A stretch of 64,000 bases of DNA, from NCBI GenBank assembly GCA_016183985.1, contig JACPDN010000006.1, forward strand, positions 1,550,001 to 1,614,000, read 5' to 3'. The notes under the pieces are model-generated. The model had not been told where the DNA came from, did not search any database, and saw only the letters and a list, made by a program, of their open reading frames with translations. The DNA is from Pseudomonadota bacterium (lineage in GTDB: Bacteria > Pseudomonadota > Alphaproteobacteria > Dongiales > Dongiaceae). The position numbers and the translations under genes were made by a program. Position 1 is the first letter of the stretch, and each line of letters opens with the position of its first letter. Positions 28,041 to 38,763 of this stretch are shown piece by piece.

Positions 28041-28733
28041 ATGTTACGCTCAAGCGGGTTTTTAGCCCTGGTCCTGATGGGGTTGTTCGCGATGCCGGCC
28101 AGCGCCCAGACGCGACCGGTCGTCGTGGAATTGTTCACCAGCCAGGGCTGCTCATCCTGTCCCCCGGCCGACGCCAATCTGATCGAATTGATGGACCGGG
28201 CCGACGTGCTGGCGCTGAGCTTCGGCGTCACCTATTGGAATTATCTGGGCTGGGACGACACATTCTCAAAGCAGGAATTCACCGACCGGCAATTCGCTTA
28301 TGAAGGACCGCTGGGGCATGCCGGCGCCTTTACCCCGCAGATGGTGATCGACGGTGCCCATGACGCGGTGGGACATGACCTTGCCGAGGTCGAAGCACTG
28401 ATCGCCGAGGCCGCGGCAGCCGCGGCAGGTGGGCCGGCGATCGAGGCGACCACGGACAGGATCGAGATCGGCGCTGGGGCCGTGCCGGCCCGGGCAGCCG
28501 ATGTGTGGCTGGTGGCCTACGCGCCGGATATCGCCGAGATACCGGTGGCGCGCGGCGAGAACCGGCGCCGTGTCCTGAAGATCGGACATGCGGTGCGGAG
28601 CCTGACGCGTCTCGGCCAATGGTCGGGTCCGGCGCAGAGCTTCGATTTGCCGCCGGCCGAAGAGGGCCTCGCGCGGGCGGTCCTGGTGCAAGCGGGTGCC
28701 GGCGGGCCGATCCTCGGTGCAAGCAAACTCTGA
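28041..28733 (+). CDS. DUF1223 exported thioredoxin-fold protein
   Basis: A 230-residue exported protein. The signal peptide (about 1-23, ALVLMGLFAMPASAQ) is followed directly by VVVELFTSQGCSSCPPADANL, a thioredoxin-like active site with CxxC (CSSC), then SFGVTYWNYLGWDDTFSKQEFTDRQ and YTPQ-type FTPQMVIDG, all family signatures. DUF1223 proteins are found through alphaproteobacteria, presumably as periplasmic redox proteins; the partner is unknown. GGAG lies 10 bases before ATG 28041. It precedes the ATP-grasp cluster by 134 bases on the same strand. Confidence 0.92.
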   Translation: MLRSSGFLALVLMGLFAMPASAQTRPVVVELFTSQGCSSCPPADANLIELMDRADVLALSFGVTYWNYLGWDDTFSKQEFTDRQFAYEGPLGHAGAFTPQMVIDGAHDAVGHDLAEVEALIAEAAAAAAGGPAIEATTDRIEIGAGAVPARAADVWLVAYAPDIAEIPVARGENRRRVLKIGHAVRSLTRLGQWSGPAQSFDLPPAEEGLARAVLVQAGAGGPILGASKL

Positions 28734-28823
28734 AACCGGCGGCACCGGCAAGCCACCTAAAATGTGACATTCCCAGCTTCATGATGACCTGGCGGCTCGA
28801 TTCTGCTAGAGCCGGAAGGGTGT

Positions 28824-28845
28824 GATCGGACGTCGCCTTCCGATC
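28824..28845. promoter_or_regulatory. Inverted repeat in the leader of the first ATP-grasp gene
   Basis: GATCGGA (28824-28830) and TCCGATC (28839-28845) are perfect complements separated by eight bases, ending 22 bases before the start at 28868. It may be an operator or a leader hairpin near the ribosome site of the ATP-grasp pair. Confidence 0.4.
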
Positions 28846-28867
28846 GGGCTTCACCGCTGGGAGTGCC

Positions 28868-30127
28868 ATGTCGACCAAATTGCTGAATGGCGTGAAGATT
28901 ACCGCGCAGATGGTGCCGCCGCCCTTGCCACTTGCCTGGGCGCACCTCAACGACGCAGAGAATGCCGTCGCGCGGATTCACAAGGTGCATTATCGCGCGA
29001 TCTGGCGCAGCCAGGGCGTTCTCGGCGGGTTGGAGATGATGGCGCTCTTCCTGCTGTGGCCCCTTCTCATCCTGCTGCGCATCATCCAAGCGACGCAGCG
29101 CAACGCGGCGATGGCGAAGGCCGCCACCGGCAAAGGTGTCTTGCGGCAAGCCTGGGAACAATTGGTGTTGGCAGCGCGCTTCGGCTTCCGCCCCGATTAC
29201 TATTACAAGATGGAGCTCTATCTGCCGGCGCATTACGGGGTGGCCGGCGGCTATGTGCATCGCTACGCCACCAAGGATTCGCTCTATCGGCTGCTGAAGC
29301 CCGCAGGCGTGGGACTGGCGCCGCTGACCGACAAGGTGGGCTTTGCGCGTTATGCCGCCCAACGCGGCCTCAGCGTAGTGCCGGTCGTGGCGGCATTCGA
29401 TAAGGGAAAGGTCGTCGGCGACTTCGTTGGGCTGCCGCCGCGCGATCTTTTCGTCAAGCGCACGCGCGGGCGCGGCGGCAGCGGGGCCGAATTGTGGTCC
29501 TATGCCGATGGCCGTTATCAGCAGCGTGACGGTGTCACCCTCGACGAAACGGCCCTGATGACGCGTCTTGCCGAGCTGTCGAAAAATGAACCTTATCTGG
29601 TGCAGCCACGGCTGGTGAACGACCCGGCCCTCGCCGACCTCGCGCAAGGGGCGCTTGCCACCGTGCGCGTGGTGACGGCCGTCAACGAGCAGGGAAAGGC
29701 GGAACCGATCCGCGCCGTCTTCCGCATGCCGAGCCGCAAGGACAGCATCGTCGACAATTACCATGCCGGCGGCATCGCCGCGGCGGTTGATCTTGCAACT
29801 GGCACGCTGGGGCCGGCCACGGATATGGGCCTTGTCCCCAGCGTCGGCTGGGTCGAGCGGCATCCGGTTTCCGGCGGGCAGATCAAGGGGCGGGTGTTGC
29901 CGCAATGGCCGGAGATGCTGGTCTATGTCCTGCGGGCCCACGATCTTTTCGCCGATCGCGCCATCATCGGCTGGGACATAGCGCTTACCGATGAGGGCCT
30001 CGCCATCGTCGAGGGCAATGCCGCCTCCGACACCGACATCATCCAGCGCTGCCATCGCGCCCCGTTGAGCGAAACGCGCTATCCGGACCTGATGCATTGG
30101 CATCTCGAACGCCTCGGAAGGCTCTAG
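28868..30127 (+). CDS. Sugar-transfer-type ATP-grasp protein, copy 1
   Basis: A 419-residue protein of the ATPgrasp_ST (sugar-transfer-associated ATP-grasp) type. A hydrophobic helix at about 57-74 (MMALFLLWPLLILL) suggests membrane attachment. The ATP-grasp core follows: DLFVKRTRGRGGSGAELW (192-210, lysine plus glycine-rich loop), YLVQPRL, ALATVRVVT, IVDNYHAGGIAAAVD, and IIGWDIALTDEGLAIVEGNA with the metal-binding E-x-N at 382-384. Such enzymes activate a carboxylate with ATP and join it to an amine, thiol or hydroxyl. It is followed by copy 2 after 15 bases; copy 3 faces them. Confidence 0.85.
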   Translation: MSTKLLNGVKITAQMVPPPLPLAWAHLNDAENAVARIHKVHYRAIWRSQGVLGGLEMMALFLLWPLLILLRIIQATQRNAAMAKAATGKGVLRQAWEQLVLAARFGFRPDYYYKMELYLPAHYGVAGGYVHRYATKDSLYRLLKPAGVGLAPLTDKVGFARYAAQRGLSVVPVVAAFDKGKVVGDFVGLPPRDLFVKRTRGRGGSGAELWSYADGRYQQRDGVTLDETALMTRLAELSKNEPYLVQPRLVNDPALADLAQGALATVRVVTAVNEQGKAEPIRAVFRMPSRKDSIVDNYHAGGIAAAVDLATGTLGPATDMGLVPSVGWVERHPVSGGQIKGRVLPQWPEMLVYVLRAHDLFADRAIIGWDIALTDEGLAIVEGNAASDTDIIQRCHRAPLSETRYPDLMHWHLERLGRL

Positions 30128-30142
30128 GAAGGGTTGCCGGAG

Positions 30143-31396
30143 ATGAGCCGCCGCAAGGCACCGAAGATCTCGGTGCAGAAGTTCCCGCCACCCTTGCCCC
30201 TCGCCTGGGCCCTCCTGCCGCCCGGCCCTGGCCATGCGGCGCGCCTCCATAAGCTGCATTACCGGGCGATCTGGCGGAGCCTTAGTGCGCCCCGATGCTT
30301 GGAGATGGCCTTTCTGCTGCTGTGCTGGCCTTTCCTGCTGATGCCCCGCATCATCGAGATGACACGCCGCAACGGCGCAATGGTCAAGGCGCGGACCGGC
30401 AAGAGCCTGGCGCGCCAGATGTCCGAACAGATGTGGCTGGCGGCGCGCTTCGGCTTTCGCCCGCAGGCCTATTACACGATGGAATTCTTCCGTCCCGAAC
30501 GCGCAGCCCAAGCTGGCGACTACATCCATCGCTATGTCGTGAAGGATGGGCTCTATCGCCGCATTAAACGCAAGATCGTCTCGCCCCTCACCGACAAGGT
30601 AGGCTTCGCCCGCTTCTGCAAAGCACATGAGCTGCCGGCGGCTGCACTGGAGATGTCCTTGGTCGATGGCAAGATCGAAAGCGGATCGGCACCCCTGCCC
30701 GCGGCCGATCTCTTCGTCAAGCGTACGCGCGGCCGGGGCGGAGCGCGGTCGGAACTATGGCTTTACGAGAACGGCCGATACCACATGCGCGGCGGCGGCG
30801 AACTGGATGGGCCGGCACTGATCGACCGCCTCATCGACCTGTCGCAGCGCGAGCCCTATATCGTACAGCGGCGCCACATCAATCACCCGCTGATCGCCGA
30901 TCTGTCGCCGGGCGCGCTGGCCACCGTGCGCGTCGTGACGCTCATCGACGAGAAGGGCGGATTCGAAGTGGTACGCGCCGTCTTCCGCATGGGGACGAGC
31001 GAGAAGAGCATCGTCGACAATTTCCATGCCGGCGGCGTCGCAGCACCAGTGGACCTGGCAACGGGCGCGTTGGGTCGCGCCACGGATTTCGGCCTGGCGC
31101 CATCGCTGGGCTGGGTCGACATCCATCCGGCGACGGGCGCCCGCATCACCGGCCGCGTGCTGCCGCAATGGGACGAGATAGCGGCGCTGGCGCGGCGCGC
31201 CCATGCCGCTTTCGCCGACCGGGTCGTGATCGGCTGGGATATCGCCATCACGGCATCGGGCATGCTGCTGGTCGAAGGCAATGGCGCGCCGGACGTCGAC
31301 AACATCCAGCGCCCGCACGGAACGCCGCTGGGCCTTTCGCGCTACGGGGCGCTGATGGATTGGCACCTGCTGGGCGGTGGCCTTCAGAGCACTTAA
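30143..31396 (+). CDS. Sugar-transfer-type ATP-grasp protein, copy 2
   Basis: A 417-residue close paralogue of copy 1. Shared blocks are FPPPLPLAWALL near the N-terminus, LHKLHYRAIWRS, a hydrophobic helix (MAFLLLCWPFLLMPRII), ADLFVKRTRGRGGARSELW, GALATVRVVTLID, SIVDNFHAGGVAAPVDL, and VVIGWDIAITASGMLLVEGN. All ATP-grasp residues visible in copy 1 are kept, so both should be active. ATG 30143 was preferred to TTG 30134; AGGAAGGG lies about 9 bases upstream. It overlaps copy 3 tail to tail by four bases (TTAA, 31393-31396). Confidence 0.85.
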   Translation: MSRRKAPKISVQKFPPPLPLAWALLPPGPGHAARLHKLHYRAIWRSLSAPRCLEMAFLLLCWPFLLMPRIIEMTRRNGAMVKARTGKSLARQMSEQMWLAARFGFRPQAYYTMEFFRPERAAQAGDYIHRYVVKDGLYRRIKRKIVSPLTDKVGFARFCKAHELPAAALEMSLVDGKIESGSAPLPAADLFVKRTRGRGGARSELWLYENGRYHMRGGGELDGPALIDRLIDLSQREPYIVQRRHINHPLIADLSPGALATVRVVTLIDEKGGFEVVRAVFRMGTSEKSIVDNFHAGGVAAPVDLATGALGRATDFGLAPSLGWVDIHPATGARITGRVLPQWDEIAALARRAHAAFADRVVIGWDIAITASGMLLVEGNGAPDVDNIQRPHGTPLGLSRYGALMDWHLLGGGLQST

Positions 31397-32688
31397 GCGA
31401 GTCCCTTGCGCTTCTTCCAGGCCTGCGACATACCGCGCTCGAAGGCGCGGGTGACATGATAGGCGTAGCATTCGGCCAATCGCCCGATACCTGCCGGAAT
31501 GTCATGGGTGCGCTGGATCATGTCGCAGCCCGATTGCACATTGCCTTCGATGACGACGGGGCCTTGGTCGCTGATGGCGACATCCCAGCCGATGGTGATG
31601 CGGTCGGGGAAGGCGGCATGGGCCTTGGTGACCAGCGCCACCGTTTCTGCCCAAAGCGGCAGAATGCGTCCTTTGATCTCGGCCCCCGTCAACGGATGGG
31701 TTTCATACCAGACGCAGGGCTGGCCGATTCCGGCATCCGATGCCGGCCCCAATTCGCCAGTCCTGATGTCAACGCGCGACACGATACCGCCCTTGTGAAA
31801 ATTATCGACAATCGCCTCCGGCTTGGTTGAGGACTTGAAGACGGCGTGAGTCGCTTCGAAGCCACCCAGCTCGTTCTTCACCGTCATCATACGGGCGGAG
31901 GTGAGCACATTGACCGAGAGCTTCTTCAGTTCCGGATGCGCCTGCATCGCCTGCTGCACCAGCATGGGCCGCTTGGCCGCCAAATCGCGCAGATGGGCGA
32001 GAAGTTCGCCGGCATTGCGCGTAATGCCGTTCTGGTCGCAGTAGAGGCCATCGACGCGATATTGCCAACGTTCGCAACCACGCCCACCGCGGCCGTTTAA
32101 GGGCTTCACGAAGAGATCGCAAGCGGGCAGCTCACCCTCGAACGGCATCAGTTTTTCCAGGCGCCCATCCTGGGTGACCAGCAGATAGGTCGGCATGGTG
32201 GCAATGCCATGGGCCTGGCAATGACGGAAGAAAGCCGCCTTGTCGTTGAGGATGCGGCGCGTCGGCGCCTCGATGCGGGATTCAAGAAAGGTGTGAAGCC
32301 CGCCCTTGAATTCGTACCGGGCGACATAGGCACCGGCGTGGCACAGGCGTTCGGGCCGGAAGAGCTCGAAGACGTAGTATTTCTTCGGCGAGATCGAATG
32401 GCGCAAGGCGATCGAGAATTGATCGGCCACTTGCCGCCAGCGACTTTTCCCCGTGGCGGCCTGGACTTTGTCACCCAGACGCGTGGTGTGCTTCCAGGAA
32501 AGATAGGCGAAGGGTAGCGGCCAGATGATGCCGTAAAACAGCACCCGCCCCAGGACGTCGCGCGCATTCATCTTCCAGACATAACGCGCATAGGAGCGGT
32601 GAATCACCTCGGCGGGGGTCTTCGGCGTCGAAAGCAGCGGCCAGACCAGTTTATAGGGTGAACAGAAAGGCAGGCGTAGATAGGCCAT
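31393..32688 (-). CDS. Sugar-transfer-type ATP-grasp protein, copy 3
   Basis: A 431-residue, more divergent member of the same group. A hydrophobic segment (VLGRVLFYGIIWPLPFAYLSW) precedes CDLFVKPLNGRGGRGCERW, SVNVLTSARMMTV, IVDNFHKGGIVSRVDIRTG and ITIGWDVAISDQGPVVIEGN. Its start codon shares a base with the stop of the HpcH/HpaI aldolase gene (TGATG at 32690-32686), so the two are translationally coupled. That pairing suggests the aldolase's product or substrate, a 2-oxo or hydroxy acid, could be related to what the ligase handles; this is inference. Confidence 0.84.
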   Translation of the reverse strand: MAYLRLPFCSPYKLVWPLLSTPKTPAEVIHRSYARYVWKMNARDVLGRVLFYGIIWPLPFAYLSWKHTTRLGDKVQAATGKSRWRQVADQFSIALRHSISPKKYYVFELFRPERLCHAGAYVARYEFKGGLHTFLESRIEAPTRRILNDKAAFFRHCQAHGIATMPTYLLVTQDGRLEKLMPFEGELPACDLFVKPLNGRGGRGCERWQYRVDGLYCDQNGITRNAGELLAHLRDLAAKRPMLVQQAMQAHPELKKLSVNVLTSARMMTVKNELGGFEATHAVFKSSTKPEAIVDNFHKGGIVSRVDIRTGELGPASDAGIGQPCVWYETHPLTGAEIKGRILPLWAETVALVTKAHAAFPDRITIGWDVAISDQGPVVIEGNVQSGCDMIQRTHDIPAGIGRLAECYAYHVTRAFERGMSQAWKKRKGLA

Positions 32689-33446
32689 CAGCGGGCCTCC
32701 GCCAGAACGCTGCGAACGCCGAGACCCAACAGGGTCACATCGCTGCCAGGAATGATGAAGCGATAGCCGCGTCCGGCCATATCCTTGGCGACCTTGCCGT
32801 TGATGGCGGTACTGCCGAGGAGCTTGCCGCTTTTCAGGATGGCTTCTTCAGCGCGTGCGATCTCGCGTTTCACGTCCGGGTCGTCAAACTGATTGAGCTT
32901 GCCCATCGTCGCTGAGAGGTCGCGCGGCCCAATGAAGATGAGATCGATGCCCTCGACCGCCGCGATCTCATCGATATGGTCGATGGCGGCAGCGCTTTCG
33001 ACCTGGACGGCGATCAAGAGATTGTCGGCGGCAGCGGCGTAATAGCCGGGATTGAAGCCGTAATCCATGGCACGCATGCCGCCGAAAGCACCGCGGAAGC
33101 CCGGTGCGGGATAGCGGCAGGCGGCTACGATCTGGCGCGCTTCCTCCCCCGAGCCGACATTGGGGACCAGAAGGCCATCGACGCCGGCGTCGAGTACGCG
33201 CTTGATATAGACGGGGTCATGGCTGGGCACGCGGAGGATGCCGGCGCAGTCATGCCCCTTGATCGCGCGCATCTGGGCAATGGCACCGCCGATATCGCCC
33301 TGGCCGTGCTCGTGATCCATCAGCACGAAATCGAGGCCACCGAAGGCGAGAATCTCCGCCACATCGGCCGAGTTGGTTAACAGCCAAGCCCCGAGACAGG
33401 CATTGCCCGCCAGCATTTTGCGCTTGAGCGGGGTGGAATTCGGCAT
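32688..33446 (-). CDS. HpcH/HpaI-family aldolase
   Basis: A 252-residue class II (metal-dependent) pyruvate aldolase of the HpcH/HpaI family. GAWLLTNSADVAEILAFGGLDFVLMDHEHGQGD opens the barrel with the catalytic His. VQVESAAAIDHIDEIAAVEGIDLIFIGPRDLSATMG carries the metal-binding Glu and Asp. The length is normal. These enzymes reversibly split 4-hydroxy-2-oxo acids into pyruvate and an aldehyde. Start 33446 has GGGGAGAG about 8 bases upstream, better than ATG 33464. It is the first gene of a coupled two-gene unit with ATP-grasp copy 3. Confidence 0.92.
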   Translation of the reverse strand: MPNSTPLKRKMLAGNACLGAWLLTNSADVAEILAFGGLDFVLMDHEHGQGDIGGAIAQMRAIKGHDCAGILRVPSHDPVYIKRVLDAGVDGLLVPNVGSGEEARQIVAACRYPAPGFRGAFGGMRAMDYGFNPGYYAAAADNLLIAVQVESAAAIDHIDEIAAVEGIDLIFIGPRDLSATMGKLNQFDDPDVKREIARAEEAILKSGKLLGSTAINGKVAKDMAGRGYRFIIPGSDVTLLGLGVRSVLAEAR

Positions 33447-33661
33447 TCTCAGTCTCTCCCCCATGGAACGATGCGACGCGCTCCGTCCCAGCGAGTCCGA
33501 AAATCGCTAAATTTTACAGTTGGATAGATGATGGAAGCTCACGCCATCGTCTGCCCATGGGGCATTCCAATAGCTTTCCTTACAGGAAGCTGACAAGATG
33601 GAATCTGACGAGAAGCTGACAAATATGTTAATTTTTTGTGCGGCGCCACTGGCGGCGGACA
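33447..33661. other. Non-coding stretch with direct repeats upstream of the aldolase
   Basis: About 318 bases separate the aldolase start from the VOC gene stop. No convincing coding frame is present. GAAGCTGACAA occurs at 33586-33596 and 33612-33622, with a degenerate GAATCTGACGA between them (33601-33611), which may be a regulator site. The region is locally AT-rich (AATATGTTAATTTTTTGTG) and probably contains the aldolase promoter. The remainder is the terminator described separately. Confidence 0.5.
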
Positions 33662-33764: not shown

Positions 33765-34175
33765 TCACATCGGCTTTTCGCAATTCACCATCCAAGGGAT
33801 GCCGAATTTGTCGGTGAACATGCCGAAGCGCTGCGCCCAGAAGGTCTCGGCCATCGGCATGGTGACCTTGCCGCCATCGCCGAGCTCCTTATAGATGCGC
33901 TCGGCTTCGGTGGGCGTGTCGACGACCAGCGAGACCATCATGCCTTGCGTGTCGCAATTCATGCCTTCGGGTGAGTCGGACGCCATCAACACCTGATCGC
34001 CGATGACAAGCCGCGTATGGGCGATGCGGTCGAGGCCACCGGGCGAGCATTGATCCCGCATCGGCGTTTCACCATTGGTCAGCATCATGGCGATCTTGCC
34101 GCGCAGCACCTTGGCATAGAATTCGAATGCCGTGCGGGCATTGCCGTTGAAGGTGAGATAGGGGTTAAGCTTCAT
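33765..34175 (-). CDS. VOC/PhnB-like glyoxalase-fold protein
   Basis: A 136-residue vicinal-oxygen-chelate superfamily protein of the PhnB/3-demethylubiquinone-methyltransferase-like group: MKLNPYLTFNGNARTAFEFYAKVLRGKI, then TRLVIGDQVLMASDSPEGM and the C-terminal FWAQRFGMFTDKFGIPWMVNCEKP. These are metal-binding or isomerase-like proteins of mostly unknown substrate. Three consecutive ATG codons occur at the start; the last (34175) has GGGAG at the best distance. It follows the DUF1428 gene on the same strand after 91 bases and is closed by a strong terminator. Confidence 0.9.
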   Translation of the reverse strand: MKLNPYLTFNGNARTAFEFYAKVLRGKIAMMLTNGETPMRDQCSPGGLDRIAHTRLVIGDQVLMASDSPEGMNCDTQGMMVSLVVDTPTEAERIYKELGDGGKVTMPMAETFWAQRFGMFTDKFGIPWMVNCEKPM

Positions 34176-34266
34176 CATCATCTCCCATGTCTTCATATCG
34201 TTGACGGATTGCCGCGCAGCGGCGGCGCTCAGAAGCAGCAGCATTGTGAAGTGGCTGGCCGCCGGA

Positions 34267-36668: not shown

Positions 36669-37304
36669 CTATTGGGCCCGGCGAAAGGTCAGATTGAGGC
36701 GGATATTGCCGGTCAAGGGATGATGGCCGTCCTTCAAGGGCGCAATACCATGATAGCGCAGCCGCGAAGGCCCGCCCCAGACCACGACATCGCCATGATG
36801 GAGAGGATAGCGCCGCACCCTGTCGCCCCGCGCCAGGCCGCCCCACAGGAAAGTCGCCGGCAACCCCAGGGAGATCGAGACGATGGGATGGGCAAAGTCG
36901 CCCTCATCCCGGTCCTGATGCAAGGTGAGGCGCGTTCCCGGCTCATAGCGATTGATGAGGCAGACATCGGCGTCGAACCTGCCATAACCCGCGGCGGCAG
37001 CGGCTTCCGTTGCAAGGTTCAGGAAAAGCTTCGGCATGGCGGGCCAGGGCTGCCCGCTTTCCGGGTCGATGGGGTCGTAGCGATAGCCGCGCCGGTCGGA
37101 GACCCAGCCGAAGGATCCGCAATTGGTCATGGCGACCGACATGCGAAAGCCCCCCGGCGTGATGAGATGGCGAAAAGGCGAAATCCGCGTCACTCCGCCA
37201 ATGGCATCCACCAGCGCCGCGGCCTGTGAAGTGGCCAGGCCGCGCAGCAGCCAGGCGCCCTCGTCGAGCTGTTCAGTGGCTTCTGCGAAGAGATCCTGCG
37301 TCAT
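36669..37304 (-). CDS. alkB: AlkB-type DNA repair dioxygenase
   Basis: A 211-residue Fe(II)/2-oxoglutarate dioxygenase that oxidatively removes methyl groups from 1-methyladenine and 3-methylcytosine in DNA. Ligands: His129-x-Asp131 in LTLHQDRDEG and His185 in LRYHGIAP, then RLNLTFR (202-208), the 2-oxoglutarate-binding arginines. NRYEPG and SISLGLPATFLWGG are conserved. The length is that of E. coli AlkB. Its start overlaps the stop of the preceding oxygenase gene as ATGA (37304-37301). It is third in the coupled repair operon ada-oxygenase-alkB. Confidence 0.95.
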   Translation of the reverse strand: MTQDLFAEATEQLDEGAWLLRGLATSQAAALVDAIGGVTRISPFRHLITPGGFRMSVAMTNCGSFGWVSDRRGYRYDPIDPESGQPWPAMPKLFLNLATEAAAAAGYGRFDADVCLINRYEPGTRLTLHQDRDEGDFAHPIVSISLGLPATFLWGGLARGDRVRRYPLHHGDVVVWGGPSRLRYHGIAPLKDGHHPLTGNIRLNLTFRRAQ

Positions 37305-38008
37305 GTCGCATCGTGAAAAATGATACCCATCGTATACCGCTCACCGCGCGTCACCCGGCTGACACCGTGGCGCAGATTGACGCGGTAAGTGCCGCGCGTA
37401 CCGGCAACCGGCCGATGATGCACGGCAAAGAGCACGGCGTCACCCCTTTGCAGCGGCACCACCATGGGCCGCGATTGCTGGCGCGGTCGCTGTTCGGTGA
37501 GCACGAATGCACCGCCGTCAAAATCGGCGCCCGGCGATGACAGCAGAATCGCGATCTGCAACGGAAAAGCGAGGGCTCCATAGAGATCCTGATGCAGGCA
37601 ATTATAGTCGCCCGCTTTGTAACGCAGGATAAGCGGCGTCGGCCGCTCCTGCCCCGCTTTGTGGCAAGCGGCGATGAAATCGGCATGGTTCGCCGGGTAA
37701 CGCTCCGCCAGCCCCATCGCCGCATGCCAGCGATTGGCGATGGGGACGAGATGGGGATAGAGCGATGTTCTCAGATCCGCGATCAGCGGCGGCAACGGAT
37801 AGCTGAAATATTTGTACTCGCCCTTGCCGAAGCCGTGCCGCTCCATCACCACGCGGCTGCGATAACGCGTTTCGTCCCCATAGCCGGCGATCAGCGCCGC
37901 GCAATCACCGGCGTCTAAGAAACCCGGCAGCAGCGCATGGCCATCGGTGTCCAAAGCGTCGCCAATGGCCGCCCAGTTAAGTGCTCTCATGGGGTCATGC
38001 GCCGTCAC
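37301..38008 (-). CDS. 2OG-Fe(II) oxygenase of the alkylation-repair operon
   Basis: About 235 residues; a second Fe(II)/2-oxoglutarate oxygenase, distinct from AlkB and closer to the prolyl-hydroxylase fold. YNCLHQDLYGALAFPLQIAILLSS supplies the His-x-Asp pair, VHHRPVAGTRGTYRVNLRHGVSRV the distal His and Arg. Genes of this type commonly sit between ada and alkB in proteobacteria; the substrate is not established. GTG 38008 overlaps the ada stop (GTGA) with AAGAGG about 8 bases upstream; ATG 37990 is an alternative start with no ribosome site. Confidence 0.88.
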   Translation of the reverse strand: MTAHDPMRALNWAAIGDALDTDGHALLPGFLDAGDCAALIAGYGDETRYRSRVVMERHGFGKGEYKYFSYPLPPLIADLRTSLYPHLVPIANRWHAAMGLAERYPANHADFIAACHKAGQERPTPLILRYKAGDYNCLHQDLYGALAFPLQIAILLSSPGADFDGGAFVLTEQRPRQQSRPMVVPLQRGDAVLFAVHHRPVAGTRGTYRVNLRHGVSRVTRGERYTMGIIFHDAT

Positions 38009-38763
38009 AGGCGTGCCTCTTGGGCAAGGAGTGCCTGTTTGCGTGCGACGCCCCAACGATAGCCGGTGATCGCACCCTTACTGCCGATGATCCGGTGGCA
38101 GGGTATGGCAACGGCGATGGGGTTGGCGCCGCAAGCCTGGGCCACGGCCCGCACGGAACGCGGCCGGCCGATCATCGCTGCCAGTTCCGCATAGCTTGCC
38201 GTGCGCCCCGCGGAGATGCGGCGCAAGGCTCGCCAGACATCGCGCTGGAAATCCGTCCCATGGGGATCCAGCTTCCACGCGGGTTGCCGCGAGGGGTCGG
38301 CCAGCAGCGCCTGCGCCTCCGCAATGGCAGAAAGGCCCGGTTCCGCCACCAGCATGGCCTTTGGGAAGCGCTGCTGCAGTTCGGTGATGAGCGCTGCCGT
38401 ATCATCGCCAAGTAGCAGACAGCACACGCCCTTTGCACCCTCTGCCACCAAGGCCCAGCTGAGCGCCCCGCTGCCGAGCGCCACGCTGCCGACGCCGTAG
38501 CGGATGACAGCGCGCGCCGTCGCCGGCTTGCAGCGTTTGCAGGGCCGAAAACCCGCGGCTTCGGCCGCGGCCCGGCTATCGTGAAAGGCCACGTTTTCGG
38601 GCCGCGCCGGCCGCGCCTTGCAGCCGGGCCGGCAATAGACCCCGCTGGTCCGCACCGAATAGAAAAAGCGGCCGTCAAATGCCGCATCCCGGGCACAAAC
38701 GGCAGCCCAACGCGGATCGCGGATGGTCGCCGCGGCAAGGGCGGCTTTCTCGGAACGAGTCAT
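38005..38763 (-). CDS. ada: Ada-type methyltransferase without the AraC domain
   Basis: A 252-residue DNA repair methyltransferase. The N-terminal Ada zinc domain (about 15-80) has all four cysteines: Cys44 and Cys48 in GVYCRPGCKAR, Cys75 and Cys78 in FRPCKRCKP. The chain then goes straight into the O6-methylguanine methyltransferase (IRYGVGSVALG at 87-97, active-site PCHR with Cys222). The AraC helix-turn-helix of about 100 residues that normally lies between them in 354-residue Ada is missing. It should repair O6-methylguanine and methylphosphotriesters but not activate transcription in the classical way. AAGGA is 7 bases before the start. First gene of the operon. Confidence 0.92.
   Translation of the reverse strand: MTRSEKAALAAATIRDPRWAAVCARDAAFDGRFFYSVRTSGVYCRPGCKARPARPENVAFHDSRAAAEAAGFRPCKRCKPATARAVIRYGVGSVALGSGALSWALVAEGAKGVCCLLLGDDTAALITELQQRFPKAMLVAEPGLSAIAEAQALLADPSRQPAWKLDPHGTDFQRDVWRALRRISAGRTASYAELAAMIGRPRSVRAVAQACGANPIAVAIPCHRIIGSKGAITGYRWGVARKQALLAQEARL

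Follow-up and report, generated by a model that had tools for sequence, protein, structure and literature searches.

The window analysed here is a 64,000-nucleotide stretch of a 4.65 megabase (Mb) genome of the order Dongiales, corresponding to bases 1550001-1614000 of its contig 13, and our subject is a group of four adjacent genes within it. Three encode members of the ATPgrasp_ST family (PF14397, ‘sugar-transfer associated ATP-grasp’), which we call P1 (28868..30127, + strand, 419 amino acids, E 3.2e-36), P2 (30134..31396, + strand, 420 amino acids, E 1.9e-35) and P3 (31393..32688, − strand, 431 amino acids, E 3.4e-37). The fourth, at 32688..33464 on the − strand, encodes a 258-amino-acid class II aldolase of the HpcH/HpaI family (PF03328, E 1.7e-40) and forms a pair with P3, of which it is the first gene. 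P1 and P2 lie in tandem and P3 converges on P2, the stop codons of the latter two sharing the TTAA at 31393..31396. The aldolase stop codon overlaps the P3 start codon in a TGATG at 32686..32690 (− strand), an arrangement through which the two genes are likely to be translationally coupled. The original prediction for this locus had described all four genes, their positions and both overlaps, which were confirmed in the sequence, and had proposed that the three ligases act successively in one pathway. Comparison with related genomes points instead to a two-gene unit of P3 and the aldolase, and this pair sits at a site that holds a single ATP-grasp gene in two relatives.

All three ATP-grasp proteins scored well above the curated PF14397 cut-off of 31.4 bits (125.4 for P1, 122.9 for P2 and 128.6 for P3). 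The identity between P1 and P2 is 56%, against 36-39% for P3 with either of them. The three are part of a broader expansion of the family, the source genome carrying six ATPgrasp_ST genes in total. Residues K150, K195, G199-G202, D369, E381 and N383 (P3 numbering) are invariant across P1, P2 and P3, and the catalytic lysines, the glycine-rich loop, D369 and E381-x-N383 are also invariant in three close P3 homologues. Among 56 relatives, K150, K195, E381 and N383 are each retained in 54 and D369 in 55; the loop residues G199, R200 and G202 vary among these 56 family members. The lysines of ATP-grasp enzymes and their D...E-x-N metal ligands have catalytic roles, and because these residues are kept, as had been predicted, P1, P2 and P3 are probably active ligases.

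A structure model of P3, built from a six-sequence alignment (predicted local distance difference test, pLDDT, 84; predicted template modelling score, pTM, 0.83), places a mostly helical N-terminus at about residues 1-120 and an ATP-grasp ligase core at about residues 125-418. The best structural match of the model was RimK (5zct, Z 15.4), and within the best 50 rows it matched RimK, D-Ala-D-Ala ligases, LysX and ArgX at Z 12.8-15.4 over 191-253 residues. The predicted core fold thus resembles that of RimK, LysX/ArgX and the D-Ala-D-Ala/D-lactate ligases (Z 15.4-15.2 for the RimK and Ddl rows), whereas P3 differs from them in sequence (10-18% identity in the rows shown) and in the roughly 120 residues of its mostly helical N-terminus. 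No solved structure was a sequence relative of P3 at E<0.9 (phmmer). Among NCBIfam models, P1-P3 matched at E<=0.1 TIGR02291 alone (rimK_rel_E_lig, alpha-L-glutamate ligase-like), a weak similarity in the core of 35-46 bits (46.2 at most) that is far under the cut-off of 314.2, and no model of the RimK, LysX and Ddl group was matched above its cut-off.

The aldolase scored 139.1 bits against PF03328 (cut-off 25) and, at E<=1e-10, matched 21 distinct sequences with solved structures, the best being GarL (1dxe). The residues with active-site roles in GarL and HpaI (DxEH, R, E and D) align in the aldolase when it is compared with 1dxe, 4b5s and 2v5j. It therefore belongs to the same family as the GarL/HpaI/YfaU class II pyruvate aldolases, with 186-191 bits to GarL/PRK10558, but it differs from them in its coupling to a ligase, in forming a separate clade within the set of rows compared and in reaching no NCBIfam equivalog cut-off tested (GarL, HpaI and 2-keto-3-deoxy-L-rhamnonate aldolase models; 191.4 vs 393 bits for PRK10558, then 185.9 vs 406.75, 182.1 vs 368.8 and 155 vs 441). 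This clade comprises 10 genes (support 96/94), the other members being 53-70% identical to the aldolase of the window. In the aldolase tree, sequences outside the clade are represented by G004:C23, G044, G045 and one paralogue of the source genome's own only, and the remaining weaker matches (<=44% identity) were placed outside the clade by identity alone.

We compared the distribution of the two genes in a sample of 17 genomes of the order, designated by G numbers with the source genome as G000; these are partly fragmented, and G016 is 68% complete. In the ATP-grasp tree, P3 falls in a clade of 12 rows and 11 genes (support 100/100) that is separate from the P1/P2 clade; two G001 rows are parts lying at two contig ends, unjoined, and were counted as one gene. 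The tree has 56 rows and omits one 111-amino-acid G013 remnant (44 amino acids aligned), the weak matches G001:C179, G003:C165, G007:C13, G007:C25 and G009:C49:275274, and the matches outside the order in G020, G038, G049 and G055. The P3 clade was present in 7 of the 17 genomes (G000, G001, G005, G009, G013, G015 and G016), and the aldolase clade was present in the identical seven. The other 10 genomes had no P3-clade gene and no aldolase match above 44% identity at E<=1e-30. A hand calculation gives a probability of 1 in 19448 that the two distributions coincide exactly by chance, an optimistic figure because kinship is ignored.

For 6 of the 11 genes in the P3 clade the aldolase is the adjoining gene; three sites are involved and two orientations occur: the genes overlap on the same strand in the window and are divergent in G001, G005, G009, G015 and G016. 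The first site is that of the window. The second (G001, G005) is bounded by a nucleotide-sugar dehydrogenase gene on one side and on the other by a regulator-methyltransferase gene, beyond which a patatin-like gene follows. The third (G009, G015 and G016, with a remnant in G013) is flanked by a disulphide-oxidoreductase/NUDIX group and by a BON-domain gene. When neighbouring genes were clustered, the ligase was the sole neighbour common to the aldolase at all three sites. The predicted link between P3 and the aldolase was borne out by shared distribution and by adjacency alike. Pair-less counterparts also exist, of the window site in G002 and G006, and of the second site in G002:C44 and in G000:C1 (the latter lacking the dehydrogenase gene), the genes of these last two being recognised from protein starts.

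Several other candidate partners were rejected. The nucleotide-sugar dehydrogenase stands beside the pair in G005 together with a nucleotidyltransferase, and in G002 the same genes, again recognised from protein starts, occupy this site in the absence of the pair. An aldehyde dehydrogenase cluster (c4) that had appeared to be a common partner splits into groups 31-36% identical to each other, and a polyamine link was dropped when the PotD-like binding protein scored 48.6 bits vs 582. In G013, an intact aldolase adjoins a 111-amino-acid ATP-grasp remnant (L065:13071-13403), and an intact P3-type ligase lies about 17 kilobases (kb) from this remnant, at a place which, judged by its neighbours, is occupied in G009 and G015 by a second aldolase.

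A separate membrane protein recurs near these genes. A protein of about 215 amino acids with four to five membrane segments predicted from hydropathy is encoded directly after the aldolase in G005, and such a multi-pass protein also directly follows the P3-type ligase in G013; the members are L066:13784-14440, L062:15291-15932, L169:8021-8683 and G000:C1:108918-109550. Pfam gave no match at E<=0.001 for one member, none at E<=1 for a second and a sub-threshold DUF5134 match (E 0.29) for a third, and NCBIfam gave none for the one member searched. Searched with a three-member profile, 750 proteins from the fetched loci yielded two of the profile's own members and, beyond these, only 14 ATP-grasp proteins, seven at E 1.6e-13 to 1.1e-5 and seven at 0.0004 to 0.006. 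The weaker seven include two fused candidates in the source genome, C2:215k (E 0.0023) and C2:401k (E 0.0004). The N-terminal extensions of ATP-grasp proteins were also searched by themselves: a two-member profile matched 13 of 19, and membrane segments were predicted in 17 of 19. In all, up to 14 ATP-grasp paralogues carry a fused N-terminal domain of this kind. A six-frame search of the 17 genomes found a close member in four (G000, G002, G005 and G013), and six of seven weak matches fell in ATP-grasp frames.

Further links to the membrane come from genes beside ATP-grasp genes in the order. Genes of a Lip_A_acyltrans cluster adjoin ATP-grasp genes of two separate clades in five loci (L102, L106, L112, L113 and L114), and the two of these five genes that were tested scored 30.7 and 44.2 bits against a cut-off of 22.3. 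Two sulfatase-family genes adjoin a fused paralogue in one orthologous set spanning four genomes, the one tested being nearest to LtaS (60 bits vs a cut-off of 970). An Acyl_transf_3 domain at the N-terminus of the L073 paralogue was considered and rejected as weak (17.8 bits vs a cut-off of 31).

Taken with the shared distribution, these data lead us to propose, with moderate confidence, that P3 and the aldolase form a two-gene functional module in which P3 ligates a small acid to an envelope-bound acceptor at the membrane. P3 would work at the membrane surface and activate a carboxylate with ATP as an acyl phosphate, as in RimK or Ddl, and the acyl phosphate would then be attacked by an amine or hydroxyl of the acceptor, which may be a lipid or a lipid-linked glycan. 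The coupled aldolase would make a 2-oxo or hydroxy acid, or run in the other direction and cleave it to pyruvate and an aldehyde, and its acid could be the unit joined by P3 or a precursor of that unit. More tentatively, and with less than even probability, the order may carry an undescribed envelope-modification system, in which a multi-pass domain with no Pfam match works with ATP-grasp ligases, being fused to them in many paralogues, and of which P3 and the aldolase are a mobile variant that ligates an aldolase-made hydroxy or oxo acid to a membrane acceptor. The aldolase partner and the fused or separate membrane domain would together offer two handles on ATPgrasp_ST chemistry, namely the class of acid and the place of action.

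A number of observations weigh against these proposals. The 17 genomes are related, so the match in seven of seven represents fewer independent events than it appears to. The closest homologues of P3 (65-72% identical; G005:C6, G016:C141 and G016:C143) do not adjoin an aldolase, and 3 of the 10 clade aldolases are not beside a ligase, one of them lying near a contig end. The aldolase's kin in G001 and G005 adjoin the other P3 subclade, so that the two genes of the window come from pairings of different subclades and partners have been exchanged. Carbamoyl phosphate synthetase (Z 14.8) and pyruvate carboxylase (Z 13.5) score level with the ligases against the P3 model, and because they do, the fold indicates an ATP-grasp enzyme and not a specific reaction; the substrates proposed for P3 are inferred.

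The placement at the membrane faces objections of its own. The hydrophobic segment originally ascribed to all three ligases stands out clearly only in P1 (about residues 55-73, mean hydropathy 2.2); it is fair in P2 (about residues 56-74, 1.76) and weak in P3, whose best segment (about residues 45-63, 1.47) is no higher than segments of the P1 and P2 cores (1.35-1.58). P3 has no fused membrane domain, and its membrane links derive from paralogues. Identity between the fused domain and the separate protein is low (18-21%), and the match is marginal for 7 of the 14 proteins. The multi-pass protein of the source genome is encoded elsewhere (C1), at a site where the protein occurs in the absence of the pair too; G001, G009 and G016 gave no multi-pass match, and in G015 the sole match was weak and fell in an ATP-grasp frame. 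Outside the order, a rebuilt aldolase profile had no match in 34 loci, and the pair was thus absent from all of the 24 places that these represent: 19 from the class search, of which 10 were covered by about 6 kb on each side and the other nine by <=1.5 kb on each side, and five plasmid records.

An unlikely alternative is that the aldolase is an ordinary catabolic enzyme for sugar acids or aromatics and that P3 shares its regulation only, for example so that an acid released from the envelope can be recycled. The closest relatives of the aldolase are indeed the catabolic GarL/HpaI/YfaU-type enzymes, and in G009 and G015 a second clade aldolase lies near ATP-binding cassette (ABC) transporter genes and a succinate-semialdehyde dehydrogenase gene (its family was tested in G015 only, the G009 copy being 95% identical). 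Against such a role, the clustered neighbours that recur at every one of the three sites comprise the ligase alone, and the aldolase scores 191 bits where the PRK10558 equivalog asks for 393.

It is quite unlikely, in our assessment, that the adjacency is historical, the two genes having hitch-hiked together within an expanding and mobile gene family without any shared function. In favour of this, ATP-grasp genes are abundant: of the 13 genomes of the order with any match, 12 have three to eight (fragments counted), and two subfamilies stand beside one and the same methylmalonate-semialdehyde-dehydrogenase-type locus. Hitch-hiking would nevertheless have to account for three sites, two orientations, the involvement of both P3 subclades and the matched presence and absence. 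At the methylmalonate-semialdehyde-dehydrogenase-type locus, the adjoining gene is of P3 type in G016 and of another clade in G015 and G005 (L070, L099 and L106), as if this site attracted ATP-grasp genes.

The history of the window site was examined by comparing G000 with G002 and G006, both of which belong to its genus; the site is comparable in these three only, because a close match to its right marker, a glyoxalase/3-dmu-9_3-mt protein (33765..34244, − strand), is confined to them (100% identity in G000, 60% in G002 and 85% in G006, against 33-38% elsewhere, with some match in 15 of 17 genomes). On the right, both relatives keep the glyoxalase, DUF1428, AlkB-like, Oxygenase-NA and Ada genes. 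On the left, both keep a major facilitator superfamily (MFS) transporter gene, and the left marker, a DUF1223 protein (28041..28733, + strand, PF06764), has a 65% match upstream of the P1 orthologue in G002 and was not found there in G006. Between these flanks each relative carries a single ATP-grasp gene, 72-74% identical to P1, and none of P2, P3 and the aldolase is present at the corresponding site. The stop codon of the P1 orthologue lies 12-13 bases from that of the glyoxalase gene in G002 and G006, and in the window this gap is filled by P2, P3, the aldolase and a spacer of 300 bases. On the left the correspondence is interrupted: upstream of the ATP-grasp gene, about 2.4-2.6 kb of additional sequence with other frames is present in G002 and G006, a segment with no further ATP-grasp match.

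P1 would thus appear to be the resident gene of the site. In the 56-row tree P2 branches outside (G002,(P1,G006)), a node supported at 100/99, and P2 may be either an older duplicate of P1 that is missing in G002 and G006 or an arrival. A repeat search for mobile-element ends found no repeats bracketing the extra segment, and the inverted repeats of greatest length (I1-I3) correspond to the coding regions of P2 and P3, which are homologous.

We therefore rejected the proposal of a single pathway made up of P1, P2, P3 and the aldolase, with the three ligases adding similar units successively, and consider it highly improbable: the four genes are adjacent and active-looking, and 5 of the 7 genomes with the broad P1 group (the P1 clade and its sister clade) also carry P3 (one-sided Fisher ~0.05, by hand calculation), but P1 stands alone at the site in G002 and G006, the four-gene adjacency occurs in 1 of 17 genomes, and elsewhere P3-type genes adjoin aldolases with no P1-type neighbour. 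The strict P1 clade is confined to three of the 17 genomes (G000, G002 and G006), of which G000 alone has P3 and the aldolase. P1 and P2 hence scatter independently of P3 and the aldolase, whereas P3 and the aldolase do not scatter independently of each other. P1 and P2 would carry out a related reaction of their own and not steps of a P3 chain, and the comparison shows that adjacency of paralogues in a single genome can pass wrongly for a pathway.

Beyond the order, ATPgrasp_ST ligases were found in 20 of 241 sampled genomes of the class (E<=1e-15), and in a 385-genome sample of the class, two genomes outside the order had a P3 match at E<=1e-30. Of four annotated plasmid relatives examined, three (Nitratidesulfovibrio, Shinella and Rhizobium) lie among polysaccharide genes for glycosyltransferases, flippases and deacetylases, the fourth (Lichenicola) does not, and an unannotated Ensifer plasmid record contains two tandem ATP-grasp frames. 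The scanned neighbours in the window are of another kind: as the original prediction had it, no glycosyltransferase occurs among those scanned with Pfam, a scan of selected neighbours and not of the whole window. The pairing with an aldolase was seen in this order only. On the Shinella (L117) and Rhizobium (L120) plasmids the ATPgrasp_ST gene lies beside a type III pyridoxal phosphate (PLP)-dependent enzyme gene and near an oligosaccharide flippase gene, with genes for an acyl carrier protein (ACP) and an adenosine monophosphate (AMP)-binding enzyme in addition at the Shinella locus, and these plasmid loci likely represent a different use of the ligase. Iyer et al. reportedly worked on amidoligases in 2009. 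Full-text searches on the family name and accession returned nothing, and among the titles returned by other searches no paper on the product of ATPgrasp_ST ligases was found; passages of PMC12419801 concern a different ATP-grasp operon.

The gene calls were checked against a 623-amino-acid open frame that runs antisense to P1 at 28757-30628 (− strand); codon scores trained on the fetched loci chose P1 and P2, and the antisense frame was rejected. P2 starts with a TTG at 30134, and an in-frame ATG follows 9 bases further, at 30143. Predicted promoters (0 found vs 1.4 expected) and terminators (4 found vs 3.4 expected) at the locus were uninformative, as was guanine-cytosine (GC) content (0.606 in P3, 0.628 in the aldolase and 0.633 in the window), and a foreign origin argued from base composition was set aside. 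Further to the right, window positions 36669-38763 hold a DNA alkylation repair cluster that is kept in G002 and G006, consisting of an AlkB-like 2-oxoglutarate (2OG)-Fe(II) oxygenase, an Oxygenase-NA relative (37301-38056, assigned through its clustering with PF09859 proteins) and Ada.

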